A stretch of 64,000 nucleotides of DNA from Asterochloris sp. CNOR1 (lineage: Eukaryota > Chlorophyta > Trebouxiophyceae > Trebouxiales > Trebouxiaceae): NCBI GenBank assembly GCA_963969365.1, contig OZ017754.1, positions 1,178,001 through 1,242,000 on the forward strand. The letters are read 5' to 3'. Both the position numbers and the translations under genes were made by a program. Under the pieces are notes generated by a model. It had not been told where the DNA came from. It made no database searches and saw nothing but the letters and a program-made list of their open reading frames with translations. This document shows, one piece after another, positions 21,481-64,000 of this stretch (positions are counted from its first letter, which is position 1; each line of letters starts with the position of its first letter).

Positions 21481-24400
21481 ATGTTGCATTATCAGATACC
21501 GTCTACGGAGTACAGCAACTACATCGGTCATGTTGTGAACCTGGGGCTGGCTGAGGACTACATAGCTCACCTGAGAGCAAGCTGTGCCTCTGAAAACACC
21601 CCTGTTAATCGCATTCATGCAGTGGAGCAGGCATGCAGGCACCTGTCGGGGGTGGTGGAAGAGCTGCAGCCTGTGCCAGTGTTTGCTCAAGTGTCCCTGG
21701 CGATACAGCCTGCCGGCCACAGCTATGTAGACGCCTCCATCCCGCAGGCAGATGCAGGAGCTACACTGCACTCTGTCGACGCGGTCCCTGCGGCAGATCC
21801 CAACAGTGCTCTGGATGCCGGTCAACTCATCCCAACAGTTGCCGAAGCTGCCCAAGCCAACAGCATCACTCATGCTCAAAAGACGGCTGTCAATATCTTC
21901 AAGGTGAGCCTCTGGGGGGCGGCCTTGCTATGAGGTGACCCCTCCAATACAGAATCCCACATCGGCATGCCTGCTGGTGATGGTCTGCCAGTGGCCTCCC
22001 AGCCCCCTGCTGTCGCTGGCACTAGATGGGCCTTGCAGGCCTGGTGTAACCGCACCCTGCCTCCGGCCCCATGGCCGTCAGTGACCAGCCGATCATGTAC
22101 CTTACAGGGCTGGTGCAAGGATCGTGGCTTTGCAGATGCTGACCTGCTGTCAGAGGCCAAGGGCCTTGAGTTTGCGACCTTCCTGGTAGACCATGGCAAG
22201 CAGCGCAATGGGCTGCCATACACTTGGAACAGCATCTGGTGAGAGGTGCTGTGCAGGTCTGCAACTGTACACGCTAGATGCTGGCCTGGCATCCCCATCC
22301 TCTGCCCCAGCTTCAGGCGTCTTGACATTGCAGGGCAGCCATTTGCTTGCCAGCAAGTTTCCCTGCCTGCAGCTATCTGCTTCTCTCTGCCCCTGCAGTG
22401 ACTTTCTGACCCATGTGGCAGAGCTGGGCAGGGCGCAGGCTGGGGCCAACCTTATACGCATGGACGTGCCCCCACCCATGGAGATTCAGGCAGTGAGGGA
22501 GCTGCTAACGCTGCATGGGCGTGCCCTGACGACTGAGAACTGCAGGGCTCATGTGGCAGCTCAGGTGCGTATGTAACCGCCATAGTGGACAGCTCCCATA
22601 TCCAGCATTTTGATTATTCTGCCTGGCAGCCTGTATCATAGCGCACGTGGCAGCCGAAGAGAGTCGGCAACTTCGTACCTCTACAACATCCAGCGCTTTG
22701 TATGGCTGTGCCACGGCGCAACAGCCATTGAGTCCTTCTCATGAGCCATGCTAAGCACTCCTAGGCTGTGGCCATCCAGCCCCAAGGTCTGGCTCAACAG
22801 AGCTGCACATCAGATTCCACAATTACCTGCCTGCAGGTGGACGCCGCCCTCAGTGCAGACCAGTTCTGTCACTCCCTGGGGACGGCGCTGAACCAGAAGG
22901 ACTGGCGGTGGGCCCTGCTCCTGGGGGCATCCATGACATACATGCCCGCCACCATGAGCCGCTCGGACAACCTGCGCAAACTGCAGTGGGCATGCCTGTC
23001 GCTGGAGGAGCAGGAGGAGGCAGGGCCTATGCCGTCTGTGGCCATTCTTTGCGGCAACCTGGGGGCAAATGGCATTCCCGGCTTTGTCAGGTGGGCAGTT
23101 TGCATTGGGAGGCTCTCTCCCTGAAAGCTGTGTTCCACACACGCAAATAATGCACCAGGAGCTGTGAAGTCCTGAGTTGGCAGCGCATACAAGCTGCTGT
23201 CCAGGATCCTCTTCCAGAAGCCTTCTGCCCAAGTCACAAGTGCTGAACACAGCTGCAATCATGGTCCTCTGCTCTCTTGAGACATACACCTCTTTCACTT
23301 CTGAGACATACGCCTGAGCAGGTCTGAGCATGCCGCTGCACTGAGACATGCACGCAGCTGGGTCTGGCAAAAGCTTTGCAGTTTGCGTCAGGTTGCGTCT
23401 GCTGTGGGCTGACGGCAGGGGTGTACAGACAAACAGCCCCTTTGCTGCAGTTAGCTGGCCGCATGTCGGCTGCGTGTCATTCTTGCAACTTGCCGGACCA
23501 TTCACAGCTGGCAGGTTCAAGACGGTTCCTGCAGTTGGCACCCCTGGCATTGCAGAGGAGCCAGGGCTCCTGCCGGTGCAGCTCGCATTTGCAGAACAGA
23601 CGTGGCTGCTGATCCTGGCTGCTGCTTCCTTGGCAGGTATCGGGATCATCGCCGGTGCCCCCAGGCTGCCCTGGCAGACCTGGCCGTGGCTGTCTTCTGT
23701 CGGGGAGTGAAGCTGGAGGACCTACAGAAGCACCTCATCTCAGCGCCGGGGATGCAAGGGGAACGCCCCATGACCATTGGCACGCTGTACCTGCATGTGC
23801 AGCAGGCGCTGGACATGGCAGGTGGGGGCTGGCCATCTGTTGTATCAATCACAGCAGTATGGATGTGCACGCTTTGCTTCTCTTGCTAAAGGTTTGCCTT
23901 TCGGCAGATAGGCCATGGATCCCTGTACCTGCATGTGCAGCAGGCGATGGAGCGACGGGTGGCTGTTGATCCCTGCTTCTTGAATAAAGTGGCTGGCGGA
24001 TTGCAGCGCACCATGACGCTTGGCGTGCTGTACTTGCACATGCAGCAGCCGCTGTGTCCAGCAGGCGCATTTGCGATTGACCGGGCCCTGCTGTCTGGCC
24101 CTGCAGCAGGCCAGCACAGCCCCTGGAACATGGCTGCCTCACAGCTGGCAGTGTCAGACATGGCATCTGCTGCAGGGCTCACTGGGGACACTCCTGCTGC
24201 CTGGTCATCTGTGGTGCAGCTTGCTCATTGTCAAGCCGCGACCATCTGCAGGCCTTCCTGTCTTTGGAAGCGTGCCTGAGCAGCCACACGCCACAGCACC
24301 TTGCCTGCAGGCGTCCCCGCTGGGAAGCTGGAGGCCTGCCCAGCTAAGGGTGATGTGGCACTCAAGTTCAAGAAGCATGGGTTTGAGCACGCCAAGGCTG

Positions 24401-27400
24401 TGGGTGTGCCCCGCTCGCGGATCATGATGACTGCCAGGTTCGTTACATAGGCCTAGGACTGCTGCTGTCTGTGACACCCTGTGCATTTTGCAGTATGGCA
24501 GGATGGCGCAGATGGCTTTGTCTTGACTGTCCCCACCCTGCAGATGTCTTTGTGGGGAGCACTCAGGTCAGCAGCAGTGCTGCCTGCTACACTCCGCTCT
24601 GCCTGGTGGCGGCAGGGAGGTACTGGGCGAGCTCTACCGCTGTAGGGGTGGAAACAATGCAAAGCTGGCTCCTGAGCTGCTGCCGCTGCAGGCATGAGAA
24701 CGACTCAGATCTCTACTGCGCCTTTGATCCAGACGTGGCGCACATGCTAGCAGGGTGGGGTCTGGACTGGAGGCAGATGCACTGCTTGGGGCAGGCCACT
24801 GTGGAGGTGGGCCTGGGACACATGTAGGGGCATGCATGGCAGCCTGCTCACCCAGGGGCTTGTACGACAGACCTGAGCAGGCAGCCATCGCCCTGTGCCT
24901 GCTCAGCTTCTGTCCAGGGTTTTGCATGTGGCATCGGCAAAGGCAATCTGTTTGGGTTTGCCTGCTGCACCGTGCATTGGTGGTTCCTGCAGGGGTCAGC
25001 TGCCTGTGGCTCTGTCCAGTCACCCCCGCAATATTCCAAGGCTCGTGCAACGCAGGGGTCATATATCCCGCTGGCAATGCAGCCACCGGCGCAAGCACAG
25101 TCGTTGCCACCAGGTTCACTGTTGCACCCTTGTCTGCCCGCAGCCGCCGGCAGAGATGCTGGATGCGGTGATGCCTGGCCTGACTCCCCTGCTGGAGCAG
25201 GCAGCCATCTTCGGGACCCCTGCGCATCACTACGGCGCGGCGCTGCGTGTGTTGCACCACCTGCGCATGGTCTTTCTGCAGGTGGGTCCCCAGACTGTCC
25301 CTTTGAGGGCATGTGTCTCCACGTCCTGGGTTGTAGCATTGCTTGGTGCCACTGCCAACTGTAAGGGGCCTGAGACTGCCCCCTGCATTGAGGCGTGCAC
25401 ATTCTCACTGTTGCTGGCTTGGCTGATGTGTACGTTTGTGTCCATGCCCCCTGGCGTGCAGCATCCATGCACAGGCACATGCTGACTGAGGGCGACGCTT
25501 CAGGCTGTGCCCAGGCTTTGTCGTCAGGGTGCTACAAAGCTGCTCACGCGCTGCTGCTCTGCAGCTTGCTGCCCTGCGCACCCGCCAGTGTGGGGAACAG
25601 TGGCTGATCACCATTTCCGGCATGCCGTGCGCATACTCCACAGCCTGAGGTCAGACCATGCGAGTCCTGCTGCAGACTGCTGCACTGCGCCTCCGCTCGT
25701 ATGGAGAGCAATGGCTGAACACCATTCCCCCGCATGCTGGGCGCCTGCTGCGTGGCCAGAGCGGGCGTCAGCTGCGCCAGGAGGCCTGGGACGCCCACCT
25801 GGCTGCAGAGGCGCGGCTGAACAATCGGCGGGACCCCATGGCTGCGGCCGAACCCCAGGCAAGCGCTGCAGCCTTTGCTGGCAGTATTGGCTCTGGGTGC
25901 CAGCCAGGGCTGCCTGCGACTACTGGCGACCTTCAGGACTGAGGGGTCTTAGGTGCTATGCTGACTGTTTGTTGCGTCTGATCATTTCGGGACATCTCCG
26001 ACTGCTGCTGGCTTTCAGGCGAGCGCTGCAGTAGTGTCTGCTCTGCCAGCCTGCTGGCTAAGGCAGCCTCAGCATTCATAGGCTCATGATGGCTATAGAC
26101 ACTAGGCAAGTGCTGCAGCATTGCCTGCTGTGTGTGCGGGATGCAAGAGCTGCGTTGGGCACCCGAGCAAGGACAGGCAGTGTGGCTTGCTGTGGTTCTT
26201 GTTGGGCAGCTGCACAAATGGCTGATGCTTAGGCAGGTGCTGCAGTGTCTCCTGCTATGCCGACAGGGGCCCTGGGCTGCTGGCCAAGCAGCAAGGCCTG
26301 CAGTGCTGACAGAGGACCAGGACTGCTGAAGGCTTCCAGACAAGTTCTGTGGCTGACAGTGTTGGGCCGGTCCCTGTTGCTCCAGAGGTGTTGCTCGCTG
26401 TTGTGCACCTTTGCTGGCACGGCCTTGGAGCCTGTGGCAGCAACAAGCAGCAGAACAGCATTACGCTGGCATGTACAACACTTGGTGGTGACCAGGCCCC
26501 AGCCAAATGAGGTGCTGTGCAGGACACCATGCCAGCTTTGCCCCGCCCCAGGACGCTGCTGGACGTTCTGGCAGACAGGGACGCAGCTCAAGCCCCAGCT
26601 GTGGGACTGAGCACAGCGTCCTCTGCTCAGCTGCCCCAAGGACAGCCCACTGGTGACCTTGTGGCGTCATCTGCTGAGGCATCAGCGCCTGCACAGCCAG
26701 CACGGCCGGTGCCGGCTGCCTGGGCGCCACCTCGTGTGTCAGTGGATGCGGAGGACAAAAGCCCCTTCGAAAAGCAGGTGGGCTGCCTTGCAGCGCCGCT
26801 CTGAGCTGTGCATGCCAGGCCGGGGGCTGTGCCAGGTGCTGAGGGGTCCAGCAGCAGGATCTCCTCTCTGCCTGCTCTTGCAGTTATATGCACTGCAAAG
26901 GTCCTGCTGCTGGCCTGCGGCTGGGCCTAAGGGCCCCGCTACAAAGCTGGTGGATCTGGTAGCCTAGCTAGCTGTCTCTGGAGCTGTGCAAGCCAAGTTG
27001 GAGCATGTGGCCCCCTTGATCAGTGTTGCAGTCAGCTGCAGATCAGTGGCAGGCAGGGTCACCCTAGGGTGTCCTGTACGGCAGCAGCAGCTACATTGTT
27101 GATGTCTGCGGTGAAGATGAGGTGGGACTCATCGGCAAGCAAAGGTCCAAAGCTGGCTCTGCAGGTCTCTCCTATCTTCATAGACATCTGCATGCACCCC
27201 CTACACCTTGCAGGTCTGGCGGCTCGCATCCTTCACAACTGTCCCCGAGGCCTATGAAGCCTACCTGGAAGTCCAGAAGGTGCCCCTGAAGCACCGCAGG
27301 TTCCACGGCAGCAAGCAGGAGGCTCGCAACAGCAGCAAGGCCTTCTCCCGCTTTGGGCTGGGCCTTGCTGCTGAGGTGCACCACCGTGTGGCCGCTGGCA

Positions 27401-29092: not shown

Positions 29093-31078
29093 ATGCAAGT
29101 CCACATTCACAGCAGATGCCCTGTGGCCACTGCTGCCCACAACAAGGTAGGCCTCATGTTGCGGCACTGCTGCGAACAGTCGCTGAGCCAAAGTGGCTGT
29201 GCCTGAGGGCTGATTCCCTTCTGTCCGGTGGCTGCAGGTCAAGTCAGTGGCTTTCCTGGGGTGCACAGCTAGATTGCAGCAGAGGCAGCAAGCAGCGGCG
29301 CGGCGGCAAGGCTGTAGTGTATCATGCGCAGGTGAGCACCCTCACCACAAACCCCTCCCAAAGCCGGCAACGCAAAATGTTCGCCCTCCACTTGTTTTTC
29401 TGCCCTGCAGCCACAGAACAGATAGAGGCTGAGGCCCCCAACAGGCCTGAGGCGCTGGACCTGGGCATTGACATCCTGAACAGAACGTACTACCCCAAAA
29501 TGGCAGATGCGGCTGCTGTGAATAAGCCCTGGTATATGATTGATGCCAAGGGCCAGACTCTGGGGCGGCTAGCCTCTCTCGTGGCCCAGGTCCTCAGGTG
29601 AGTGCGACTCTCGCGCTGCGACTCTCGTGCTGCTGCGCTGCCTAAGTGTGAGGAGTTTCAGCCTGCCCCGCCGTGCTGAGTTGTGGCACGGCAAGCGACA
29701 TGCATGCTCCGTTCTAGGTTGTGGCGCTGCCAGCAACGTCAGGGCCGGGGCATGCTGCAGTGCCCTGCGGCAAGCAGCGTCTTGGTGCCAGCAGGCCCAG
29801 TCTGTGCCCCCTCCTTTGCAGTGGCAGTGTCACACTGCAAGCCGTGCCTGGCTGCAAGCATGCACATCCTGCTTCCTGTGCTTTGAGATGTGACAGGTGG
29901 AGCAGAATGTGGGTGCATGCATGCTGTGCCTGCCTCCCTTCCCTTCTATGCTGTGCAGCAACAAAGGGTCTAGGCAGATTTGCCGACTTGCGTACCTGGG
30001 CAAGTGGGCGGGCGGGGGAGCAGTGCCCGAACGACATTCCCTCTCCACCTGCAGAGGGAATTTGTCAGGCCACTATTCATGCGCAATGCCAAGAGCAGCA
30101 TTTTTGTGTTGCTCGCAGGCAGGCTGCATGCCTGGCAGTGGCTGGCTGGGCAAGCAAGCCCTGACTTTGGCTGCAGTATCTTCACTAATGGCTGACCTTG
30201 CAGGAGCAAGGACCAGGCGACCTTACATGCTGCAATGCACATCGGCGCCTATGTTTGCTGCTGAGCTTCGACACGCTGCAGCATTGAAGCAAGACCCCTG
30301 CGCTCCTGATGTAGGGGCAAGGACCAGCCGACCTTCCATCCTGCCATGGACATGGGCGGCTACGTCGTCATCCTCAACGCAGAGCAGGTGGAGGTCACAG
30401 GACGGAAGAAGAAGCAGAAGCTGTACCGAAGCCACCCCACTGCTCGGCCTGGCACGCTCAAGACAGAGACATTTGAGCACCTGCAGGAGGTAAGACGACA
30501 GGGCTGTCTACTGGTGGTGTCCCTGTGCTGAGCTTGCTTTGTCAAGGAGGCCATGCTTGTCGCAGTGCTGACGCAGTGCTGAGGTGCTTGAGTAGGTGGT
30601 GGCACCTATAGGTGTTGGCTTGCATGGCCTTGCTGCCGACACTGTCTGTCAAAGGACCTTAGAGCAGGTGCAAGTGCAGTTCAGCACTGCACCAGAGCAA
30701 GGCGACACTGTGATGTTACTCCTCTGGCTGAGGGTGCCCTGGAGCCAAGTGAGAGGCCCACCTATGTTGGCACATTGCACGTAAGGTCTGAGGGTCCTCC
30801 ATACCAATGATTGAGCTGCCCCTTACAGTTTTACTCACTACCGGTCAGGTGCAGTGGCATATACTCACCAAATGCCCCCTGCCGCTGTGCAGAGATTACC
30901 GCAGCGCATCATTGAAAAGGCAGTGTGGGGCATGATGCCCAAGGGACGCCTGGGTCGGAAGCAGATGACTCACCTAAAGGTCTTCAAGGGGACCAGCCAC
31001 CCTCATGAGGCCCAGCAGCCAAAGGACATCACCAGCAGGATCAATCAGGCCTTCAGTGGCCCCCTGATCAATGCGTGA
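29093..31078 (+). CDS. RPL13: Plastid 50S ribosomal protein uL13c (nuclear-encoded L13)
   Basis: Large-subunit protein of the chloroplast ribosome, imported after translation in the cytosol. Five exons: 29093-29146, 29238-29331, 29411-29597, 30315-30489 and 30893-31078, phases consistent, 231 residues. Residues 1-50 form a transit peptide: few acids and many Arg/Gln/Ser/Ala ([17 protein letters not shown]). The ribosomal domain starts at [18 protein letters not shown]. It continues with [20 protein letters not shown], the L13 signature region [19 protein letters not shown], and LKVFKG. The C-terminal HPHEAQQP matches the chloroplast and bacterial form, not the cytosolic L13a. The 717-nt intron 3 contains a decayed copy of the beginning of exon 4 (30211-30271). 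A TGTAA polyadenylation-like signal lies 91 nt after the stop. Confidence 0.95.
30211..30271 (+). repeat. Copy of the uL13c exon 4 acceptor edge
   Basis: The copy translates as [17 protein letters not shown] where exon 4 (from 30315) has [17 protein letters not shown]. It includes an AG acceptor and then runs into a stop. A more decayed third copy may lie at about 30050-30115. Confidence 0.85.
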
Positions 31079-31168
31079 TTGCCCTCCTTTCTCCCATCTT
31101 TGACCAATCTTTTCTAAAGGGTAAAGATTGCAGACCGCGGTCATTATACATTGAGCAGTCTCCAGGAC

Positions 31169-31173: not shown

Positions 31174-31259
31174 TGAAGGCCACACACAGCAGCTCTGATT
31201 GGTGTCATAAAGTAATCATGCCTGACGGCACAGGTCAAAAGTTGTCAGCTGTGGGGCAG

Positions 31260-34200
31260 TCAAGCGCTCTCAGCTGCCTGTGCCCTCGCTGCAAGTGCCT
31301 GCAGCCGTGCATCAAAGTGCCTTGCGACTGCGTCACGGCCCTGTCCTGTGCCACCAAAACGCTCTAGGTAGGCTTCTCGCAGGTCCTGCAGAAGACTGCC
31401 TATGCCCAGTCCCGTAGCCCCTGAGCCCTCTATTTTGCCGCGCGAAGCCCCAGCAATGTTGCTGCCATCCAGCAGATCGCTGGAGCCCTGCAGAAGAGTA
31501 CAATGTAAATTTCCAGTGTGGGACTTGTGCAGGGGACACAGCCAGAGCATGCCAGCACAGAGCAGCCACCCCAAGCCAAGGATGTAGAGCTGGCTGATGT
31601 GCACCATGCATGTGTTGAAAATGAGTGCAAGGCTGACTCTGGAGAAGAGCAGCACTGATGCCACATCTTTGGGACAGCATCACCTCGGGAGCAACAGCCA
31701 CCACAAAACTCTCAAACAGGGTGCGCTCTTGCTCCGGTCCATCCTCAGAAGACAACGCGTCAAACAGGAAGGCGAGGCGCTGCAGGCAGAAGGTGCGTAG
31801 AGGGGCCACGCTGAAGTCGTCGCCGCACAGCAGCAGGCGACAAATCTGCTCCAAGTTTTGGCCTGAGGGCCCCACTGCCGCCATGATGTGCTCTGCAACC
31901 TCACGCTGCAGGCACAGCACGGGCCAGGCTGGAGAGTGATGGAGCAGCGTTCAGCAGATCAGGTGCACTCATGTGCCCAGCAGAGCAGCAGGCAGCCAGG
32001 CTCTGGCGTGAGGGGCCAACCCGCTGCCCCATGTGTGCTGGTCGGCAAACTCACCCTGCAGGATACTAGGAACGTGTATGCACACCAGCAGTTGGCTGTG
32101 CAGCAGCACGGCAGGGTTGCTTAAGGTTCTGACCGCTGGTCCACTGCTGTCATCATGGCCCCGCGTGGCAAAGAGGGTGTTCATGCGTGGCAGACATTAC
32201 TGCACCTCAGCAGGCAGCCACAGACTGCAGCCCAACTTCCCATCAGCTTGGGCACCAAACAGTGGTCTGCCGCTACCAGCAGCTGGGCAGACCCATCTGC
32301 AAGCTCAAGTCTGACCATGCAGAAGTCACTCAGGTGCTTAAGCGTGGCCGTGCGTGGCTGGGGAGCCATCAGAGTGCAGGGCAGATGTAGTCCAGGGACC
32401 AGGCAATCGCACCTTCAGGTTGGGCACCAGGTACCTATCTGCCGCATCCAGCAGCAGCGCAGCCCCGCCTGCCCTAAGCAGGTGCTGCGGCAGCCTCTCC
32501 AGCCGGTCTGTGTACAGGAACTCTACGAGGAAGGCAAAAACCTCAGCGTCCTCCTGCAAGCTAAGCACAGGCAGCTCCTGTGGCTGCTCGTCCGCCAGCT
32601 CGTCATACGCTGCGCGTGGTTGCACCTCGAGAAAAACGCGGCAGAACTCTGACCTGCAGGTACAGGGCAGCGCGCTGTGTGACTGGCAGGGCCTGGCAGC
32701 TGTGCAGTCACACTGCTAAGATGCAACAGTCTCCGAAGGTCTCCAAGCTGCAGCAAAAGATGGACATATCTGCAAGCACAATGTACACAGGCAGGCCGCC
32801 TGCATTGATCTCATTCTGCTGACGACTGCATGCCAGCTTCACATGGGAAGACGGGTGCTGGACCACCTGCTGAGAGGTGCCGTCGGGAGCAGCCCTAGCA
32901 GGTCAAAGCGATCTGCCTTGTCGCATGTGCACAGCAGTCCCCCTCAAGAGAATGCGCTTCCTGGAAGCTGAAATGCATCTTACCTGACCGCCAGGATGCA
33001 GCGGTGGCATCGGAATCGCTGAGTCCCCACGTCCAGCACCACATCTGCAAAGTCCCCTGCTCCAACCCAGCAGGCCGCTGCCTCCAGGGCAGCAGATCTG
33101 GCACGAAGCCCTGCCAGGTCGGCCGGCAGGCGTGCCTCTGGCAGCAGGGCGCCCGGCTGCAGCACGAACCTGCAGCAGGAGGGGGCTGGGTGACTGTCAC
33201 CAGCACAGGGCACATGGGACACATTAGGGCAGTGCGGCTGCCTAGTCAAACCACATGCCTTGAAGACAGGGGCAGGTGACTGCCACCAGCACAGGGCGCA
33301 TGGGACGCGACAGGGCGCTGCAGCAGTCTGTCCCAACCCCATGCTTTGTCTTCCAGTGAGCATCGCCCTGTGGTGGCAGGGCACCAAATACCTGACGCCC
33401 AGTCAGGCTCATCTCCCACACTCCCGGCATAGTCGATCAAGCTGAAGGCCTCCCACCTGCGCGGCGCTGGGTCGTCGCTGCGGTCCTTGGTCTGCTTGCT
33501 GTGCCAGTAGTAGCGCACCATGGACAGCTCATCCTCCATGGCGGCCGCCACATCAGCCAGGCCCATCTTGCGAATCACACACAGCATGGCAGGCATGTCA
33601 TCCCTGATCACATCCAGCCTCTCTGCAGCAGGGCAGACCACTGCTGGGCTGCAGATTTCAGTGCAAAGAGTGCCAGTGCACAGCAAAGGGCAGGGACTTT
33701 GTGGGAGGCACTGTGCTTCCAACCCTCTGGTGCATTGGTCATCTGGATGAAAGACACATAGCTTACGGGGTGTGCAGGCTAGAGGAGGGGGTGCTGTCCA
33801 GGGGGCAGGTGACTGCCGCGGCACAGCGCTAGGGTGCAGCTCAAGCAGCGGCAAGCGTATGCAGACAGCTAGATGCATTGCTGGCGCAGACCACATGCCC
33901 AGAGTCAGGGCAGCTCTCTGACCTGTGTAGCAGTAGATCAGGGCAGCCTTGAGGCCGGCTGCAGTGAGGCCCTTTCTACCCAGGTGGACGACCCTACATG
34001 CTCCACCCTGCAGGTGCAGCAGCAGGGTGGTGCCCGGTACAAGGCTGCCGCAGAGCGTGGGAAGGTGACAACTGCCGTGAGCTGGCCTGACAGACCCGCG
34101 TGCCACGTTGCCACTCGTAGCGCTCTGATGATGCACAGTTCACATGGGCCAGTGGCAGCTGCCACACATGCACGCCGCTCCACATTGAGCTGCACTGAGC

Positions 34201-39400: not shown

Positions 39401-39994
39401 GCAGCTGCTGCAATTCAAACCAGCCTGTCGACAGGACCAGTTGGGCCGAAGGCCTTGGCTGGTCACCACGTGACGGGGCGGACATCTCCTTCGCATTGCC
39501 TACACCGCCAGCAGCACTGATAACAGCCAGACTATGTACAGCAAGGTGCTGACTCTTCAAGCTGTGGTCACGTGCTGAGCATGAGGCCCAGGCCACTGCG
39601 TTGGCAACATGGCAGAACGTGAAGATGCTACAGCTGGTGTGGCCCACCTTCGTCATCGATTTGCAGCCCAGGGCGATTGGCTCCAGATTTGCGGCTGGTG
39701 TCCTCAAGCTCCTGATAGGCTGCCGGGCTGATGGCTTTCAGGGCACTGAGGCCGTTGGGGCTGAGGGCCAGGCCTGCCCCGCACAGTCGAAATTCAGGCG
39801 CTTGATCAAACACACCCACTTTGATGCCTGGGGATGCCTCCAGCAGGCCCAGAGCAGCAGCGAGGCCGCCTGCAGCATGCTGGGAAAATTCATTGTGGTA
39901 GCCCCAGCTGCAAGTAACAGCTTTGGGAGTGGTGGCTGTGCTCACCTGGGCCTCCTCCAATCACACAAACATCATACTGATCTGCAGCAGGCAT
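36420..39994 (-). CDS. FAD-dependent monooxygenase A (class A, UbiH/zeaxanthin-epoxidase-like)
   Basis: Flavoprotein hydroxylase of the NAD(P)H-dependent single-component class; the substrate is unknown. Ten exons: 39946-39994, 39648-39869, 39335-39499, 39053-39177, 38806-38873, 38272-38479, 37847-38045, 37297-37436, 36801-36899 and 36420-36593. All phases fit, giving 482 residues. The FAD-binding Rossmann motif is YDVCVIGGGPGGLAAAL (GGGPGG at 13-18). The DG motif is LVLGADGYHSRVR (166-169). The second FAD contact is LLGDAAHPLRPTGQGANTAL (GDAAHP at 336-341). No clear targeting peptide is present. It is a tandem duplicate of monooxygenase B, with identical intron positions except one. The C-terminus is 43 residues longer than B's after the shared EFV block, and that tail is the least certain part. 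Confidence 0.88.
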
Positions 39995-49725: not shown

Positions 49726-52700
49726 ATGAGCCTGCTTGATGCATGGCTTCCTCCAGATCTGGCCAATCAAGTGGCTTCTGAAGAGCCATTGCGGTTCGAA
49801 GCCCTGGTGCGGTGCCTCCAAGATGACTGGCAGCGCAACAAGGACGCCATGGCCATGTTCAAGTGGCTATCGTTGCTGCAGCCGTGAGCTGATAATCTTG
49901 GACTCAACGCTGTATTGCACAAACTGGTACTGCTTCAGCTCAAAGCGCAGCGCTTTGCAGTGCAGCCCTTCTTGGAGCTTCTAAAGGACACCTGAGCCAT
50001 GTCTCCTAAGCCGTGCCTCCAAAGCCCAACTGCTGTTCATGGAGCTGTGCCCCTCAAAGCTGTGAAGCATGCATTCCATGTTGATTGTGCAGGTTCCTCA
50101 ACCCAAAGGCAGAGTATGGCAAGGACGCCATTGATTCGTTGGTCAATATCATGTTCGAGATGCTCTTTGCCTCAGCAGACAATGTGGCCACCCAGGTGTG
50201 CTGCTCAGCTGTCTCAAGTCTGCTGGCCACCCCTCAGGGTGTGCACATGCTCTGAGACCTTTTCTTGTCACTATAAATGGGCATGCTTGCTGGCTTTGGG
50301 GCTTTTGTGTGCTCAGTCAGTGTGACTGCCATCTGGTGTGCAACGCCGTCACTTCCATATGACCAAACTGCCCAGAGCTGAACTCAGGCGTGGCTGCTCA
50401 CTCCTAAGGTCTCATGATACTCCACCTGCAGTCCCGATGGGGGTCCACCCTGGCAAGAATCCTGCGGCTGTGGCGCAAGCGCATCTCAGTCTCTGTGGCC
50501 TGGAGGCCCCTGTACGACCATGCCCTGAGGTCCTGGCGCACCCAGGAAACAAGCTATGAGGGTGAGATGGGTCCTAGGTCCTTTGAGTTTCAGGAGCTGG
50601 ACTTCAAGAAGACATTTTGGGCGTGTCCCCATCAGGCTTCAAGAAAGCTTTCTCTCCTCTGAATAGGCAGTGGCACCACCTGCTCCGCAGGCCCCCCACC
50701 CTTGCAGCACAGTGGCCCCCTTCATTTTCTCAGGCATGTGCTCAACAGTTGCTCACCAGCAAAGCAGACACTTTGCGAAGAGGTCTGCTGCCTGCCCCAC
50801 CGGGACACAGCCTTTGCAGCTCATCAGCTGGAGTGCCTGACATGGCTCGCAACTTGTTCACTGACTGAGACATAACCAGGACTCATGCTGCCTGCATGTC
50901 AGCATGAGTGCCTTTCCACTGCTGCTGAGCATGGTGCCGCGCTGCTGCACGATCTATGATGTATGGCTGCCTGACAGGGCAAGACCGCGCAGTTGCTGCT
51001 GACAAGAGGCCTGACTCTGACTGCTTGGTCTGAGCTCACCAGAGGTTTGTGCTGTGGCAGCTCCCGTCAAGCATGGCACCCCGCTGCACCTGGCTGCACT
51101 GGTGCAGTACCCATCGATCATGGCACCTCTGTGCATCTGTCTGCCAAGTAGCTGCAGCCAGCAGGGGCCTACGCAGCTGCAGAGCCCTTCATACCCTGGA
51201 CTCACTAGTGCATAAACAGTCCACAGTACCTTCCTCTCATTCAAGGCTCCTCCTGCTGCAGGGCCCATGATATCCGGCAACCGCGCCAACGCGCTGCGGA
51301 ATGTGGTGCACCGCAGCAGGCGCTTCATGCCTTCTGGGACGGTGCAGGACATCTGGAGCAGCTTCAGGCCCCTGCTTCAGGACACCAACAAAATTGATGC
51401 GCAGGAGGTGGGCTGCCAGCTCTCTGTGCACATCTTGTGCACGTATCCAGAGCTGCCGTCTTTTGGGCAAAGAGCAGCTGATATAGGCATGTCTGCCTTC
51501 GCGGTTGGCATTCAGCATGTGCACAAAAAGAATACTGCTTCACACAGGCTTGCTCGTGCTGGTGGCGAGTGCCTGCTCGCTATGCGCAGGCTTCTTGCTA
51601 GCTGTAACTGATTTTGCCCACGCAGGCCATACACAGTTTGTTGGACGGCAATTTCTTCGTTAAGGTGGCAAGCAGGCTTGGTACGACAATGCTGGAAATT
51701 GAGGGGAGGCTTCTCTTTGAGCATACAGGCCTCTGCACCGGATGTCATTTCCCCGAAAGGAGCTTGCAGTCTGCAGGCTGGGCGGTGAATGTGCATGACT
51801 CTGAAAAGGGCCTCCTGCAAGAGCACAGCCCAGCGTTGCAGAAAATTGGCAAGCTTCTCCTGATAGGTCCCGTGTTGAGTGCAGGCTTCTGGGCTGTGGA
51901 TGGGCATGCTTCTGCCCGACAATGTGTTGAAAACATGACGGACTGCAACTGTCTTGTGCATTGCAGCACTCAGGCTTTGGCCCCGAGCGAAGAAGAGCCA
52001 GTTGCTGTGTGCTGGTGCCAGGCTGGCTGTGCATGTTGTTGCCACCAGGGCCCCCGCGCAAAGAGCACCTGCATCAGAATGGCAGGGCTGTGCTGCAGGC
52101 CCTGGTCTGGGCGTGCATCTTGCTGCCCACCCAGACCACTTACATATGGCAGCACTGCAGCGGTCCCTGTATTGTGGCACCCAGGCTTGGCATCGCGCTC
52201 ACAGCAATGTCTTGCCGCCTGCAGGCACTAGGCTGGATGTGCATGTTTCTGCCCACCCAGGCCATCCACAAAGGGGACAGCATGGACTGGAACAGCCTGG
52301 TCAGCGATGCCTTGCTGCTGCTGGAAGCAGATGAGCAGAACCAGTTCTGGAAGAGCATGTGGATCAGCATCCTGGCGCGTCTGGCCAAGCATGACCACCA
52401 AGGTGTGTTGCAGGTTTTGCCTTCTTGAGTGGCGATGCATGACCGGGCTAGGCGCAGACCCTCACCTGCCTGGCCAAGCACAACCACCAAGGTGTGCTGC
52501 AGGTGTTGCCCTCTGTGCTCTGTCTTGCATGGGAATGTGCGGGCTGGGGAAATGCAAGGTTCTTGGAACCCCTGACCAAGAACATGACAACTGCATGGGG
52601 CAGTCACAAGACGTGGCTGCAACCTGACTTGACCCCAGCTTTGCAGTGCTTTGTGTCACAGGAATCAGTTGCATCTGCTGGGCAGCACTGGGTGTCACTG

Positions 52701-55700
52701 TCAGCTTTGCTGCCCGTGCAGGATTGATCAAATGGCAGGACCACCTGCCACGACTGTTCACACAGATCAACTGGGCCTTCTCAGTGCCAGTGGGATCTTC
52801 CACTGCTCAGTCCCCTCTGGGTGAGCAGACAGCCTATGCTTACTCACATTGAAATGTGTTCGTGGCCCAGGCCAGGCTGTGGGACTGCTGCTGTTTCTCC
52901 AGTGTGTGCTGGTGCTAAAACACATCAGCAGCTGTTGCCCTTGAACGGAAAAGATGCTGTTGTGTGCACCAGCACGCCAGCAGCCAGTGAGTTTGCATCT
53001 TGTTGCCTGCAGCGCTGAGCTGTTACAATGCTCTGTACTTACTGGACTAGTGTTGGCAATGGCTGCGTGGCAGCTTGCTTGAGGCATATGCCTACTTCTG
53101 ATGATGCACTTGCAGCGCGTAACCCCAGCGGCATGGTGGCAGCTGCCTTCTCAGCAGAAGTGCGACCAATCAGCTCAGTGGGAGCCAAGCTCATTGTCTA
53201 CCTGGTTGGCTTGATGCCAGCCGCAGGTCTCAAGCAGGTGCAGTCCTGTTTATGCTGCACTGACTGCATCCAGTGGCCTGATGCCAGCCTTAGGGTGCAG
53301 CAGATCTCCCACAGCCAGACGCTGCACCATGGCCTGCAGACCTGCATACGCGGTGCTTCAGGTGGCTCCATGTGAGCAGGGCTCAAACAGGGCAGTCCCT
53401 TTGTCTATGCTGCACTCAATGTCTCAGAACTTTTACAACAAACAACACCCTCGATGCTGCTGCTGGTGTAGCTGTCATGATGGCACGTCAGCATCAGGCA
53501 TGGGGCCCAGCAAATGTGAGCAGGAATGCATGCAGGTGCTGAGCAGCGGCAGCGTGGAGCAGGCAGGGGCTACTGCTCTGCTTGCGGGGCAGGCAGAGTC
53601 TGTGCCCAGCACTGCAGGAGAAAAGAAAGGCGAGCAGGATGCAGTTCTGCTGCAGCTGGGGCAGCTGGTGGATCTACTGGAGCAGTACTTCCACCCCAGC
53701 AATGAGGGCAGGTTAGTTGAGTGCTTGTGTGCATTTCTGTCCTATGAAACGGGGTGGTGAGGCTGGGCATGCACTACTCCAGCCTGGTTTGGTCAGCTCA
53801 GCGCTGAGGGCTAGCTGTCTGAAGCTTGCTGCAGCTTCCCAATGTCCGCCCAGCTCAGAGGTCTGGAGGGGCTTGGTTTGCCCTGATTGGCATGATGCTG
53901 GTTGCTTTATTGCTGTGCAAAGCAATGAGGTTTGATGGGGCAGCACTGATCCAGCTGCCGCGTGCTGCCTTGGGCTATAGTTCATTGTGATCAAGGGACA
54001 GGGGGCCTGCATCTTGCAGCAGCCTGGTGCTGCTGACTTCCATATGATTATGTCTGCTCTCTTGCTTTCTGCACCAAGGGTCCAATGCTGCTGCTGCTTA
54101 GCAACGATTGACAATCATTTACACAACAGCAGCCTGCCTGAGCAAGAGCTGCCACGAGTTGAGGATGATGCAAATGCAGGTGGACCAAGTTCCTGCAAAA
54201 GTTTCTGTCAGGATTGTGCAAGCACCTGATGAAACGTCTCCAGTTTGAGAACAGCAAGAGGGATGGCAGCAGCAATGACAGGCCCTTGCGGGCACCCCTG
54301 GGGCGCGAGCTGCAGCGCAGACTGGCCAAGGTCATCCTGCGCATGGCTGACAAGGCACAGTTCAGCAAGGTGAGGCATATCATGCTATACACATAAAGAC
54401 TGCATGCATCTCCCTAAACAGCATGATTGAGCTTAGTGAACCATGGGGGCACCCCTTCACAGAGCATGCACTTGGGCCTGCCAGCGCCATTTGTCTGTGA
54501 TGTGTGCGCCACAAGTCAAGCAATGATGGGCATGTGTGGCTCTGTGTCCTCCACTTGTCAACTGCCTGCAAAAGTCTTGCTGTTGCTGCTGACAGAGGCG
54601 TCTGGCACCAGAGCCAATGGAAGGTGCTGACCGTAAGGGCGCTGAGAATGCACTGATGGAGTCAGCGTGGGGGCTCAAGACTGTCTGCCCTGCAGGACAA
54701 TGACATGGCCATTGCTGCCTGCTCAGCCATGAGCATCATGGCCTACCTGGCACCAGATCTTGTGGTACCACTGGTGCAGGACAGATTCCAGGTGCGCAGC
54801 ATGACATTCCGCCTCTGTCTGTGTGGACTGGGTGCTGATGCTTGAGTACCTGCCTTCTGGCTGTTACAGAGGGAGTGTGCTCACCTTATGCCATACTCCA
54901 TGGCTGCTCATGCTTGAGCTGCTGTACCCTGCGGCCTTGTCACACAGGGCTGCTGCTGAGTAAGCTGCTGCCCTTTTACTATAGCAGACCTGCTGTGCGT
55001 TTTCGTCTATGTGGCTGGGGTTAGCAGACCAAAGAGCCCCTGCCCTCTGCAGGGTGCTCTTGAGAATGTCACAGCTGCCCACCAGCTGGTCAGCGCCATT
55101 CACACCCTGGGCCTCTGCGTGCGGCCTCTGCTCGTGTCTGGCTGTCTGCTGGCCCCAGACAGAGCCGACGGCGCAGGCATGGCTGCGTACGAGGATAAGG
55201 TATGGCCCTAGTTGTTTCAACCACGTCATGCTGAGGATGTAGTACAAGAGATCGTGGTACGCAGCGCACTGACTACTCCCAGCTCCTGTCAGTGAAAAGA
55301 TGCTACAGAACAGCTGGGTCAGCTCTTCTGCACATGGCTGTGTGCACAAGCAGCGCAAGGCCTCTCTCCTCACCAGTCATCTGGCATTGGCTGTCATGCA
55401 TGCTGCATCCCTCCTCAAGCGTGGTGGGGATCAGGCAAACACTCCATGCCATGTGGCAGTTCTGTGCCCTGTCTGACGACATGCCCGGATGCAGCTTGCA
55501 CCCATGCATTTGAAGAGGACGAGGGGGGGATTTTGTGGCTGGGACCATGGTGCAGACCTCAGTGTGTGCTGTGCTTTGCTGCGCTGAGGTGCCCATGCAC
55601 CTGCAGGTGATGGCAGGGGAGTTCGTAGCTGGCGCAATGATGGCAACCCTCCCTGCCATTGATGCAAATGACCCCCCCAAGACATTGGCTTCCTTCCGCT

Positions 55701-58700
55701 TCTACTGCATGGTGCTCTCGTCTGTGGGGACGCTGCAGGTGAGCTGGTGCTGCTTGCTTTGCCCAGCCCTGTTACTCTCATGAACTCCATGTGGGAGATG
55801 AGCCACAGGTATGCAGTCTTGGCCTCTGTGGGAACGCTGCAGATGAGTCAGAGAAGGGACGCAACCCACTTGCATGTGGGTGCTTCTTCTGGCAGCAGAT
55901 GAGCTGACCGTGGCCTGCCTGCTGCAAGTCCTGCTGCTGCCCTGCACCTCCACCCCATTGCTCTCGGTCGACCAGCACAGAGCGGCCTGGCTCTAGCGCT
56001 GGTTTGGGCGCTCGCTTGTGGCCACACTTGTACAAGGAACAGAAGTGCTCATGTAGAAGCAAGATGAGGCAGTTGATCCGCAAGCTGGGACCTGGTCGAG
56101 ATGCCCCTGGATGCAACAACATGAGTGCAGGCAGCCTTGCCACCATGCAGGCCTCTGACAAGCTGCACCCTGCTGTGCACAGGAGGCCTGCTGAACCGCC
56201 GCTCTGCAGGCTCAAGCCTGCCACTGACGCAGTGACTGCACTCCCTCCAGGCAGGGCATGGTGGGCTCCCTCTGGATGCAGAGGAGTGGGTGGAGGGCCT
56301 CCTCAGCCGCATCTTTGTCATTCTCAGCAACCTGGAGTCCCCTGAGACCCGCGGCGACCACGCCAGCAACCAGGGCAACCTGATGACGGGGAACTCCCTG
56401 GACCACGCATCCTTCCTGCTGGAGGGGAACAGCATGTTCAGGTGGGAAGGGAGCCGCAGCCTCATATCTGCGTCTTTTGGGGTCCTGCTGCAGAGCAGCA
56501 GCATCTTAAGGTCGGGCTGCTAAAGCCTATGCCAGGGCTTGCTCCTGATGCTCAGCTGGGGCAATCTTCAACGGGGGCACTTGGCTGTTCCCACTGGAAG
56601 GAGATATCAGGATTAGGTGAGGCATCAGGGGCATGTGCTGGCTGTAAGGCAACACAGGCTCGTGTAACACCGATTCGTGTCTCCTGTCTGCTGGCGGAGG
56701 GTGAGAAGTTCAGGCTGTGGGAGTTATCCCCATCCTGCCAGGAGTCAGGTCAAACGCATGTCTGACTTAGGGGTCAGCCAGGGGAAGCACACCTGCCGGA
56801 CAGTGAGCAGCCCCACTACCCACTCTCGTGTGCATTCACAGAGAGAGTGAACATCTCTTGACTCAAGGTTGCTGCGGTGCACATCATGGCCGTGACTGCT
56901 GCCAGGCACTGAGCGGCCCACTGCCCTGGTCCTGCTGGATGGTTCAACAGGGCATTCATGCCTGCCTGGCGGGCGCTCAGCCCACCCCTGCGGGGCGAGT
57001 GGTGGTGCTGGGTTGTAGCAAGGCGCTGCCCTGCAGGCCACCAGTGTAGCATTAGCTGACCAACCTGCCCCCACACCAGCAGCCATGGCCTGTGCAGGTC
57101 CTCAGCTGGAGCTTTGTGCCTTACATGCACTGCTGTTTGCCAGTCTTTACACAGACTTTTAGCAAATGACCATCAGGCATGGTGCTTGCCTTATGCAGGG
57201 CACTGACCGCCTTCAGTCAGCGACAGCGTTTCGTACCTGCCCTGCAGGCCACTGGTGGAGCTGTTGTTTGCACGCCTGCCGCCCGGCCTGCAGCGTGTTG
57301 CCATGAAGCACGTGACCCGCTTCATGCTGGGCACCACCATGCCCTCAGTCAGCAACGAGGCCTCCCTCATCTGCAATGCGGCGGCCTGGGCTGCCCCTGA
57401 GGCAGCTGGGGAGCTCATGCTGGAGCCGATGATGCAGAGGATTGAGGAGGAGCTGTCTCACAGTGGCGGCGGCGGGGCCAGGCTGTCTAAGGCGAGTCCC
57501 CCGGGGTCTGTTGGGAGGGTCCCCTGCAAGGAGCCAGGCACCCAAGTGCTGTTGCACAGCGGTCTCCACCTGTGCAGAGTTGCTGCAGAGCAGGTGTAGG
57601 GCGACAGGGCTGTCCAAGGCAGGTGTGACCCTGGCTGCTGCTTCCCAAGGTGCAGAGATCTGAAGACGGGGTGTCTCAGGGCAAACACAAGGTTGTCAGA
57701 CTGTCAGTGAGTTGGCACCTGGACGCTGCTGCACAGCTGTCTGACGCCTGGCTGCCAGTGACTGGGGGTGTCCGTGGTATTTTGTTGCCTGGTCCCTCAG
57801 GCATAGACACTAGACCGATGTCAGTGCAAGCTACTGCCGGTCTGCTGCTGCCCACTCTCTTTGTCGTGCTGCCAGAGAGGCAGGCTGCTGCTGCCAGTGC
57901 CCATACCTGTGCTCCTCCTCCTGACACCCGGCTTCCCAAGCAAGCCTGCTTGCCCAGCTCCCAGCACCATTGGAGAGTCTGCACAGATTGCTGTGATTCT
58001 CTGATCAGCTTATATCATTTCCAAAGATTGCTTCTCATTTATCTGTGGCAGTGCAGGGCGAGAATGCCAAAGGTTGCTTTCATACCAGTTTGAGGAGCTC
58101 AGCAGCTTTGCAGATGATGGTCGCCACCGGCCTGCGCACATGATAGTTCTGACCGGGCACCCTGCTTATTCATGCAGGTTCAGGAGGGAGCCCTGGACTG
58201 GCTGCTGAGCGTGCTGTCAGCCACAGTGATGCACATTGGTCCCCAGCTGCTGCCCTACAAGCAGCGCCTCAAAGCCCTGCTTGACGCGTTCTTTGCGCTG
58301 CCGTCCAAGGTGAGCCCGCATCAGGCGTCACTGTCTGTCTGGCAACTTTTGGTACTGGACTTGGCAAGTCTGCCCAACAGCAGACAGAAGCAGCTGCTAC
58401 CACCTAGGTTGACAGCCAGGCAGGTGCTGAGGGGTCAGTGCACGCCTTCTGAGCTGCAGGCCAGCCTTGCGCATACCATGTCTTTCTCTGCGCCTGCAAA
58501 CCCTACTAGTGCAGTTCTGGGGGGTTCTCGCAGCTTGTGTTTTGCCTGGAGAAGTTGCACTGGGGGACCCACAAGTGTGCTCTGCTACTGCTGTGGGCAT
58601 CATCTTGCCTGGACCTGTGCCAGCTGGACCAGCTGTGCTGCGACAGGCAGCAGCAGCCTCCTTGGCTGCTGTAGCCCTTGCATGCAGCACTGGTCAACCA

Positions 58701-61700
58701 CGGAACGCCTTGCCTGCAGAACCTGCACATGCGCGCCACTGGGCTGCTGGGACCCATCCTGTCAGCGCTGGTCTCCTGGTACCCCCTGGACCAATTTGCG
58801 CCCCTGGAGGAGGCGCAAGCAACAGGCGCTGCAAATGGCAGTGCTGCAGCTGTGCACCTGGAGCCGTGGGTCATAGGTGCATCCCTGGAGGAGGCCAAGA
58901 AGTGGAATGCGCCCAAGTGGCACGTCCCCAGTCCCAAGGTAGAATATAGCCTCTCAGCCCTGAACAAGCCCTGCTGCTGCCTCAAGCACTGCATCTAGTA
59001 TGTATGGATTCCGCACCCTACAGAGCTGCTCAGACCACACTGACTGAATTTCCCAGCGTCCCTTGTGCAGCACAGCATTGGACAGCTGGCAGCCTCCCTC
59101 CTTAGCAGCAACCAAAAACATAAGTTCCTTAATTGTCACCAGCAGCTTCCAAAGACGAGTGTCTCTTGTGTCCCTCATGCAGGCAGTAGGGTTTGCGCAC
59201 CACCTGGCGAACGAGCACCTGCTCATGCCGGCCGCTAGTGAATGGCATTGTGTCTTTCATTTGCAGGCAGTGGAGTTTGCACACCAGTTGCTGGAGGCGC
59301 ACATGCAGAAGCCTGCTGCAGACCTGCTGGCCTGGGCCCAGTCCAAGGATGGCAGCGCTGCCATCCCAGGAGGCGCAGTCTCAGCGGTTGTGGGCGCAGC
59401 ACGAAGTGCGGTGGTTGGCGCTGCAGCGGCTGTCGCCGGCAGCGGCAGCACAGGCGCCCAACAGAATGGCGCCTTTACAGAGAAGCAGCACATCCAGGTG
59501 GGCAGGTGTGCACTGGGGCACAGTTTGGGCAGGCATGCACGTTGCTTCACAGATTGAGCAGGTGAGGAGTCATGCACAGGTACAAAGCCTGTGCAGGTCT
59601 GCTGCACCAGATGCAAGCAGCATGTGTGCAGGTGCATACCTTTCTGCTGGGTTTGTTCGGTCGCAGTGCCTGCAGCTGCATGGTAGTGTTGCAGTATTGA
59701 GAAGGAGGATCTCTGAGTTGGCAGTCCTGCCATAGTAATGCTGCAGCTGCATGACGTCGGCGTAGACAGGGCAACATGCCGTCTGACCAGCTTGTGCTGC
59801 TGCTGCGCCTGGAAGACTCATGTATGCATTACTGTTTGTGCCCACACCAGCTTGCAGCTTTGCTGTATGTTTTAGCACACCCTGGCAAATAGCAAATTCA
59901 AGTCTAGCTGCACTCGTGGGCCCCTGCTCTCGGCTGCAGCACCATCCTGCTGCAGCATCTTGTGGTGCTGATGCCGGCATCTGACACCGAGATCTGGTGC
60001 TGCACCTGCCTCCTGCTGATCAGCCTACAGTGCTGGATCCCAACAAATTGCTGGTGTATCAGATACAGGGCACCCTGTGGTCTTGCCAGTCTGAGCTGGC
60101 CTTGTCTCTGCAGCAGTCCGCCTGCAGGTATTGCTGTAATGAGATGCCCTTTTCAGCCTTGCTGCTGTCTGTCTGCAGGCGCTGGTGTACCAGATAGAGG
60201 GCACGTTGCTTGGCCTGCGTTCCAGCCTGCCAGAGCTGTCCTCGATCGCGTCCCCAGCAGCCAACTCAAAGCCCCTGCACGTTGTGGGTGCCTGTGGGCC
60301 GCCCATTGGCAGCGCTGCAGCGCGGGAGGAAGTGGGGCGCGCCATGCTGGCTGCACTGCGGGCCGTGGGCAGCAACGACTTCGAGTCGCTCAGCCTGATG
60401 CTGCGTGTGAGTTACTCCGCCTGCCATGTGCGAGAGTGTTCTCTGCGGCATTGGATTACAGAGACAGTGCAGTGCTGGCTGCGCCGTGGGGTGTGGGCCG
60501 CAATACTTTGAATCGCTGAAGCTGCTGCTGCAAGTGATTTGAAGCTTTTATAGGTGGGCAATGATGCAGTGCTGTGTGCTTTGTGGGTTTTGGACAACAT
60601 TCACTTGGAAGTTGCTGAGCCTGCTGCTGCAGATCAGTTTGAGTCAACTGCTTGGGATACAAACAATGAGCAGCTCACCAATGTCAGGCATCAGGGAGGG
60701 ACCCCTCTCATGCACATTGCACTGCCATCGTGTTTCCAGGTACTGGGGTCAGTGCTCACCCGCGGCTCCCACGAGTTCTCAGAGAGCAAGAGCAGCATGT
60801 CTGCCTGGAAGTCAGACCAGCAGGCAGTGCACGAGCCGCCTGTTGCCCTGCTCCTTTCTGGGGTGAGTGAGCAGCCGTCTCTAAGTCTGCACTCTCACTG
60901 CTGCTCTTTGCCCAGGCTTCTAAATGATGCATGTCCCCTTTGTGTCACCTGCTGTTGCCCTGCAACTTGTTCTCCTGCTGCAGTGTTATACCCTTTTGCT
61001 TTGGCTGTGACTGGCAGCCATGCCTGCAGTCTTGCAGGTACAACACAGCCAGTGGAGTCTGCTGCATGTTAGCTTGCAGCAGCCGCAGGCTTTGTTCTGG
61101 AGCCGACCAGCAAAGTTTGTTGCACCCGCCTGCAGACTGCAGATGGTAAGTGGGCGCGCATGCGCCCCCGGTGGCTCACTGTTGAGCGGGCGTACTTGCA
61201 CCTGCTGGGGCGCGCAGGGTCGTCCTCGCACAAGTGGTGGGCCACAACAGCTCAGCCCTCCCCAGCTGTGCAGACTGTACCCACGATTGTCAAGGTGACT
61301 GTTGACTTGGAGCATCAACCAGATGCGCACTGCAGGCCTGCTGACACCTGTGGCCGCAGAGCCGAGAACGATAAAGACAGAACTTGATGTTGAGCTGTTG
61401 AAGCATGCACAATGTGGGCTTTTCATGAGCTGTGGTGCCTTGGCAATTGAGGTGGCTGAGTGATACCATGAGCAGCTTGGCGCCGCGGGGGGGGGGGGCA
61501 TGTCAATCGCGCCTATGTGTTGGTGCCTCAACCTAACAGTGCCACTCTGCTCATCTATCAGCATTGGGCCACATCAAGCCTGAGAAGGCCATATCAGCCC
61601 AACCTATGGCAGCTCTTGCCTGCACTTGCCCTATTGCACAACGAGAGGTGCGTTCATGCATGTTGATGTCCATCACTGTCCGTCATCGTGCAGGATGTGA

Positions 61701-64000: not shown

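Follow-up and report, generated by a model that had tools for sequence, protein, structure and literature searches.

Close direct repeats and short paired duplications reportedly occur in eukaryotic genomes, direct copies outnumbering inverted ones nearby and fading with age, in the surveys that Achaz and Thomas and their respective colleagues are said to have made in 2001 and 2004. We know of no analysis of such repeat surveys by exon junction.

Several systems with short local copies have been described. In human, small tandem duplications are named as the commonest short (<100 bp) insertions, and their formation is ascribed to fill-in and end joining where breaks have complementary 3′ overhangs (PMC8355091). 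Rice duplications are reported to be tandem, partly tandem, or situated nearby, at ≤200 bp (PMC7407515). In the human study of proximal capture by Pace et al. 2009, 824 probable cases are counted, 4 of which have partial exon/intron donors, with copies within 50 bp excluded by design; two duplicated exons were tested there and showed no constraint (PMC2671141). A tandem duplication that includes an intron-exon junction is described for the RdRp gene of potato (PMC4974935), as are novel introns by tandem duplication for Drosophila (PMC2891723). These two papers cite Gao & Lynch 2009 and Rogers 1989 for intron gain and intron-exon tandem duplication.

The initial annotation of a 64-kb stretch of Asterochloris DNA, called the window below, had described introns littered with decayed copies of the adjoining exon edge and had proposed recurrent local duplication anchored at exon-intron junctions. 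The analysis reported here establishes that exon-edge copies in introns are real and occur genome-wide. They are probably ordinary short direct duplications, tandem or partly tandem, that cross junctions and are visible through the conserved exon copy.

Experimental Procedures

The window (G000:C9:1178001-1242000, 64 kb) belongs to a genome of 56,383,464 bp in 21 contigs. It was presumably chosen for showing the pattern. An unselected sample of 20 stretches of 10 kb (200 kb) at fixed positions on 17 contigs was analyzed alongside it; L001, which covers the window's own place, was omitted. All counts refer to this one genome. Pair lists, the junction, decay, contiguity, and cluster counts, and the recount at ≥85% identity were made with no diversity filter.

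Gene models were obtained with a purpose-built two-strand finder (codon table, splice matrices, Viterbi) that was retrained on its own output; they are predictions from sequence, in which some adjacent genes are merged and some small exons are surely incorrect. In the window 8 gene models with 129 introns were predicted, and the retrained finder predicted 425 introns in the 20 sample stretches. The ARP3 model matches solved ARP3 (E 3e-91), the uL13c model matches solved uL13c relatives with a consistent exon start (E 2e-57; plastid uL13c), and the PA200/PSME4 model matches solved relatives (E 2e-23). EMC3, BTB, and FAD-binding domains were recovered among the window models. Pfam gave no match for the N-terminal piece of PA200 or for the recombinase-like piece, whose label is that of the initial annotation, made from sequence alone. 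An Rfam scan of the window returned nothing at gathering thresholds.

Results

Local repeats were compared by orientation, a contrast that is independent of gene models. At ≥32 bits and offsets of ≤600 nt, with low-complexity sequence excluded (3-mer diversity >0.4, inverted arms non-overlapping), the window contained 26 direct and 0 inverted pairs and the sample 71 direct and 1 inverted, in agreement with the earlier statement that the copies keep the same orientation. Self-comparison of the window (word 7) at ≥40 bits and offsets <400 nt yielded 13 direct and 0 inverted pairs. Three dinucleotide shuffles of the window gave 0 direct pairs at ≥40 bits closer than 400 nt; one shuffle gave 1 inverted match, in the 0-100 bin, for which arms overlapping themselves had been left in. 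When the threshold was lowered to ≥28 bits, 41 direct pairs were found within ≤600 nt in the window (29 exon/intron, 6 exon/exon, and 6 neither), and 26 of the 41 cross a predicted junction; a separate tabulation of pairs by threshold used a 3-mer diversity cut-off of 0.6. TRF reported 25 arrays of period 45-450 versus 0 in one shuffle, and 113 versus 40 in shuffled sequence at a looser setting.

Exon edges were then aligned with their adjacent introns and with control introns, the comparison that the initial annotation had outlined. Introns <110 nt and edges of exons <30 nt were dropped, which left 761 of 1,082 edges. At a score of ≥30, 43 of the 761 edges matched their own intron, compared with 0/761 for the reverse-complemented edge and 0/3,805 for other introns, of which a small, random fraction may be shorter than the intron replaced. 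Under sensitive scoring the own intron was matched by 61/761 edges (8.0%), versus 2/761 for the reverse complement and 0.29% of 15,220 comparisons with other introns. The own intron outscored all 20 control introns for 109 of the 761 edges, where 36 are expected and the reverse complement gave 32. With the same sensitive scoring, 37 of 42 clear edge alignments span the junction. The distance of 60-350 nt claimed for the copies is roughly right: the median edge-copy offset is 117 nt, and offsets extend from 51 to 417 (minimum to 99th percentile). A visible copy is present in 63 of 556 introns (11.3%); the copies cover 2.8% of the sequence of these 556 introns and copy plus spacer 6.7%. The copies are real, and "littered" is a strong word for them. 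Under a slightly different rule 65 introns bear a copy; their median length is 394, compared with 211 in the remaining 491, but a long intron also offers more room for one.

An origin from a dispersed repeat family, low-complexity chance matches, misassembly, or faulty gene models has a next to negligible probability. CTG/CAG words abound in the sequence and the gene models are predictions unvalidated by RNA, but both edge controls at a score of ≥30 were empty. An introner or other dispersed repeat has many genome copies; three pairs (uL13c 30199-30365, ARP3 47525-47710, and PA200 52381-52514) each gave a single match, at their own locus, in a search of 56.4 Mb in which very common words were skipped. 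The copies have diverged and therefore are not assembly duplicates, and the direct/inverted contrast needs no gene model.

Exon-edge copies were present in all six genes for which they had been named: those for a disordered protein, a recombinase-like protein, uL13c, monooxygenase B, ARP3, and PA200. Alignments in transcript orientation bear out that upstream copies carry the acceptor and exon start and downstream copies the exon end and donor. In the disordered-protein gene (minus strand), the acceptor edge at 8540 (source 8518-8567) has a copy in the upstream intron at 8595-8644 (8518-8644; offset 77, 80% over 50 nt, 22 exonic and 28 intronic nt). The gene at 18754-20139, which we take to be RPB7-like, has its acceptor edge at 19327 copied at 19409-19458 (19279-19458, minus strand; offset 130, 76% over 51 nt). 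These two cases, at 8518 and 19279, extend the pattern beyond 22031-62210, the interval first assigned to it. On the plus strand, an exon 3′ end of the recombinase-like gene at 23764-23813 has serial copies at 23923-23951 and 24007-24054 (23764-24054), 23785 pairing with 23923 at offset 138 (97% over 29 nt) and 23764 with 24007 at offset 243 (81% over 48 nt); the cores stop 8-10 nt before the predicted donor. The same gene carries a copy at 25559-25632 upstream of the acceptor edge at 25676 (source 25670-25744; 25559-25744, plus strand, offset 111, 77% over 75 nt), and uL13c (plus strand) one at 30199-30254 upstream of the acceptor edge at 30315 (source 30310-30365; 30199-30365, offset 111, 82% over 56 nt).

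Further pairs lie on the minus strand. In the BTB gene the acceptor edge at 31906 is copied at 32004-32062 (31859-32062; offset 145, 75%) and the donor edge at 32413 (source 32412-32472) in the downstream intron at 32240-32300 (32240-32472; offset 172, 74%). The pair 33189-33262/33275-33348 (33189-33348; period 86, 77%) is confined to an intron and includes no exon. In monooxygenase B, 42645-42700 is copied at 42743-42799 (42645-42799; offset 98, 77%), the core stopping at the predicted exon start, 42700. ARP3 has three such sites: the acceptor edge at 46328 with a mostly intronic copy at 46393-46417 (46324-46417; offset 69, 96% over 26 nt), the donor edge at 47415 (source 47409-47459) with a copy at 47283-47333 (47283-47459; offset 126, 76%), and the acceptor edge at 47570 (source 47531-47588) with serial copies at 47649-47704 and 47853-47876 (47531-47876; offsets 118, 86%, and 296, 92% over 24 nt).

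PA200 (plus strand) shows a further series. Upstream of its acceptor edge at 52225 lie copies at 52093-52138, 52002-52052, and 51763-51803 (51763-52264; offsets 126, 83%; 210, 75%; and 448, 77%), together with a similar predicted exon at offset 340 (82%). Donor edges are copied downstream at 52470-52514 (edge 52403, source 52381-52425; 52381-52514, offset 89, 89% over 45 nt, 22 exonic and 23 intronic nt), at 53376-53416 (edge 53238; 53223-53416, offset 153, 83%), at 55825-55847 (edge 55739; 55721-55847, offset 104, 91% over 23 nt), and at 60473-60540 (edge 60407, source 60345-60413; 60345-60631, offset 128, 75%). Within the last of these spans, 60468-60532 and 60565-60631 form an intron-intron pair (offset 97, 75%). 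Acceptor edges at 57248 and 59267 have upstream copies at 57026-57050 (57026-57261; offset 211, 88% over 25 nt) and 59166-59235 (59166-59319; 59166 pairing with 59248, offset 82, 72% over 72 nt), and the start of the exon at 60179 has one at 60050-60073 (60050-60204; offset 131, 92% over 24 nt), whose core begins 2 nt inside the exon. The copies had been described as serial with decreasing similarity and as including the splice site. The first description is partly right, serial copies being seen at PA200 52225 (83/75/77%) and ARP3 47570 (86/92%); the splice site is included in most exon/intron pairs and is missing from 9 of 62, examples being monooxygenase B and the 23764/23785 cores.

The geometry of the pairs was examined for tandem arrangement. 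Of the nine pairs with the highest scores, six form contiguous units arranged head to tail: a 404-nt unit with a whole exon (L015), three units of 68 nt across a donor (L016), 119 nt across an acceptor (L011), 64 nt inside an intron (L005), 65 nt across a donor, the copies lying 5 nt apart (L004), and 148 nt inside an intron (L014). By BLAST coordinates the copy ends overlap by about 0 (L005), 1 (L016), 2 (L011), and 13 nt (L015), that is, with little end homology; TRF lengthens the L005 array by 6 nt. Tandem duplication by fill-in and end joining is consistent with the direct orientation and with the small end overlap seen in contiguous cases. At ≥38 bits, 10 of 77 pairs are contiguous. Among the 17 with ≥85% identity the number is only 4, mostly because the others consist of short cores (26-58 nt). 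In most pairs the alignment spans roughly half the offset, and cluster offsets have a median of 111 nt (5-95% range, 67-316 nt).

The spacers of the remaining 67 pairs were compared with the flanks. Under strict scoring they averaged −0.75 per nt versus −0.79 for the null, with 0 above the 99% and 3 above the 95% null level. A lenient anchored test was applied to 57 pairs (≥36 bits, offset 40-260, spacer ≥20 nt, 150 nt free at each end), and its six comparisons drew on 48 of them. On the intron side the rank z values were 3.0 (n = 20) and 2.9 (n = 14), on the exon side a weaker 2.1 and 1.9, and for intron-intron pairs 2.8 and 3.7 (n = 14); an earlier lenient version with 56 pairs had given 4.6 on the intron side and 4.1 on the exon side. 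A strictly contiguous tandem reading of all pairs was rejected on the contiguity counts, and "tandem or partly tandem" was retained. Given this residual similarity, we read the pairs as units that were tandem, or partly so, and have since decayed in their free parts; with few contiguous pairs and strict spacers at background, many events may have been only partly tandem or non-tandem.

Repair-mediated capture of nearby DNA, by synthesis-dependent strand annealing or serial template switching, would leave direct copies with an unrelated spacer and with microhomology, filler, or deletion at the breakpoints, and we consider it a possible though rather doubtful source of the set. The 67 of 77 strong pairs whose spacers have no strict flank homology, among them 13 of the 17 with ≥85% identity, are what it would leave, and proximal copies of ≤619 bp, some with exon/intron edges, are described in human by Pace et al. 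2009 (PMC2671141). The lenient test, however, detects spacer homology. Free insertion should also often copy exon interior without the junction, and 9/62 pairs lack it. The sample has only one inverted pair, whereas an exon copy in opposite orientation is part of the human set (PMC2671141).

Overlapping pairs were grouped into clusters and classified by position. The window gave 20 exon/intron, 1 intron/intron, and 1 exon/exon clusters, and the sample 32 exon/intron, 10 intron/intron, 9 exon/exon, and 2 outside genes. The junction share is 32/42 (0.76) in the sample, 20/21 (0.95) in the window, and 52/63 combined. Simulations placed contiguous units uniformly over the actual annotation, the working copy of the exon being under purifying selection. 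Uniform duplication is predicted to yield most of the excess at junctions, since similarity is lost through changes in a single copy where the unit is exonic and in both copies where it is intronic. The simulated junction share was 0.55-0.60 with ages uniform from zero and 0.65-0.83 with ages of 0.15-0.35 substitutions per site, a range picked after the data were seen. At these older ages, simulated identity was 0.79-0.83 and aligned length over offset 0.35-0.70 (observed, 80% and 0.49), and codon-position mismatches were 0.15-0.19/0.16-0.19/0.21-0.26 (observed, 0.15/0.17/0.22). The observed values for identity, aligned/offset, and offset modulo 3 come from 58 pairs with offsets of 40-300 at ≥32.5 bits. 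The model fails in two details: junction-missing alignments made up 0.22-0.57 of simulated pairs at older ages versus 9/62 observed, and stops 5-7 nt into the intron 0.08-0.12 versus 13/62. These misfits leave room for a possible modest junction bias or for constraint beyond six intron letters. Frequent collapse of fresh tandem repeats would be expected to leave few very young copies.

Preferential copying of exon edges by a process linked to splice junctions (shared CAG|G motif, R-loops, co-transcriptional breaks) was also weighed and appears unlikely. The combined and sample junction shares both exceed that simulated for uniform placement with ages from zero, and junction-missing alignments are rarer than simulated. 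Yet older ages alone lift the simulated share to the range given above, and pairs confined to introns occur (L005 5285, L012 1148, window 33189). The 17 strong pairs with ≥85% identity comprise 10 exon/intron, 3 intron/intron, and 4 exon/exon; decay alone should give about 2:1 for exon/intron to intron/intron, and 10 versus 3 is too few to tell. The window, in addition, was presumably selected for its appearance. We judge junction anchoring unnecessary for the observed pattern. Of the earlier interpretation, recurrent local same-strand duplication is upheld by the direct-only local excess and the own-intron edge matches, whereas most of the junction excess that had suggested anchoring is predicted by uniform duplication with purifying selection.

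The mode of decay was assessed from codon positions. In a copy under coding constraint, changes would be concentrated at third positions. In 63 exon/intron pairs, mismatches amounted to 98/651, 109/648, and 143/639 at the three positions (0.151/0.168/0.224), as expected for a free copy and synonymous exon drift: the copies decay neutrally, and the coding constraint of an alternative duplicated exon was not found in these pairs. That the copies serve as alternative exon edges or decoy splice sites under selection is very unlikely. Their acceptor-motif letters are fairly well kept (18/181 mismatched), but donor-motif letters mismatch in 24/115, the mismatch rates at the three codon positions point to no strong coding constraint on the copies, and the offset modulo 3 is flat (21/19/18 in 58 pairs). 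Selective retention of decoy acceptors was considered separately and set aside; 18/181 looks low, but simulations at lower divergence gave 0.08-0.11. In alignments with one junction the copy lies on the intron side in 51/53, a result that the classification largely forces. The intron overhang is most often 6 nt (10/62), the length of the splice signal, and such a peak is expected if the working side conserves only exon and splice signal.

That the introns themselves arose when an AGGT-containing exon segment was duplicated in tandem (Rogers model) is extremely improbable. One strong candidate was found, at L011 7327-7701, where the 25 nt preceding the donor agree at 21 positions with the final 25 nt of the intron. 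However, the register test, which asks whether donor surroundings recur at the acceptor in step with intron length, stayed at the null over the 441 of 541 introns kept for it (means, 14.87 versus 14.75).

Discussion

The reading as ordinary short direct duplications is based on the direct-only local excess, the genome-wide occurrence, the single-locus origin of three pairs, the head-to-tail strong cases, and neutral decay. Such duplications, with copies mostly 65-300 nt apart, would arise all over genes. Inside exons they would mostly be purged by selection; inside introns they would be tolerated and lose similarity at twice the neutral rate. A duplication across a junction would leave the original mRNA unchanged if, as the reading frames suggest, splicing uses the site that adjoins the rest of the exon. 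The spare exon edge with its splice signal would then stay in the intron and decay neutrally while the true edge is conserved. The exon part would be recognizable longest because the true exon edge is conserved while the spare copy decays. We infer staggered-break repair or slippage as the DNA event, an initially contiguous state for most units, and use of the original splice sites in splicing. The known short tandem duplication is the most likely event, with replication slippage and proximal capture as alternatives.

The conserved exon edge serves as a reference that reveals otherwise invisible copies, and the history of intron growth thereby becomes readable. With a trace in about 1 intron in 9, a single genome could suffice to measure how fast local duplication adds sequence and how many spare splice sites it offers to alternative splicing. 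The initial annotation had further suggested that duplication drives intron growth and supplies decoy splice sites; the former is plausible in size, copy plus spacer making up 6.7% of intron letters, and as far as sequence goes the copies would constitute a supply of decoy sites. Were junctions true hot spots, which we doubt, exon edges would repeatedly seed introns with splice-site-bearing sequence, edge copying would have built a sizeable part of intron sequence, and cryptic splice sites would be in constant supply. The analysis also carries a warning that junction-centred patterns can stem largely from selection and visibility.

Our search, which left subscription literature largely aside, found no published report of introns loaded with decayed exon-edge copies. 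Like the close direct repeats of the Achaz and Thomas type, those of Asterochloris show a nearby excess of direct over inverted copies, likewise fading with age.

The staggered-break duplications of rice and human, including those at Cas9 nicks, are alike in direct orientation, in size of tens to hundreds of nt, and, for part of the Asterochloris pairs, in adjacency or near adjacency (PMC8355091, PMC7407515), and the contiguous cases in Asterochloris show little end overlap. Those duplications are polymorphisms or induced events, whereas the Asterochloris copies are old, decayed, and read against a conserved exon. In vertebrate proximal capture, too, exon edges and intron splice sites are among the sequence copied locally (Pace et al. 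2009, PMC2671141). There the human set has at least one opposite-orientation exon copy, whereas the Asterochloris copies are almost all direct; per kb, Asterochloris has far higher raw counts than that set, by methods that are not comparable (PMC2671141). In the intron gain by tandem duplication described for potato and Drosophila (PMC4974935, PMC2891723), intron-exon structure is likewise included and splice signals come from the parental junction. A new intron or exon results in those systems, whereas in Asterochloris the old junction probably stays in use and the copy is left as intron. Each ingredient of the pattern is already known from other systems, and what the analysis adds is the controlled count.

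In the recombinase-like gene on the forward strand, the acceptor picked by the retrained gene finder sits within a decayed copy of the preceding exon's end (23822-24064). The first gene model bypassed this acceptor and went on to 24311. The decayed copy may provide a real working acceptor, or it may merely mislead prediction.

Three further cases lie in 10-kb sample stretches from elsewhere in the genome, each with its own local coordinates. At 545-748 of L016, a 68-nt unit is present three times at 93-96% identity in an array that spans a predicted donor site, giving three consecutive candidate donors. A whole exon together with flanking intron is tandemly duplicated at 6184-6987 of L015 (82% identity, offset 404 nt). 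For the intron at 7327-7701 of L011, the last 25 letters repeat 21/25 of the exon letters preceding the donor; this intron is a candidate for birth by tandem duplication.

Within the window, the long-range direct pairs at an offset of ~3.5-4.0 kb are due to a gene duplication, as 36801-43871 holds a tandem pair of similar monooxygenase genes.

The minus-strand ARP3 exon from 47569 was compared with solved ARP3 by protein alignment. Three additional residues were found at 47555-47569, located at the exon edge that has serial intron copies. The start of this exon may have moved.
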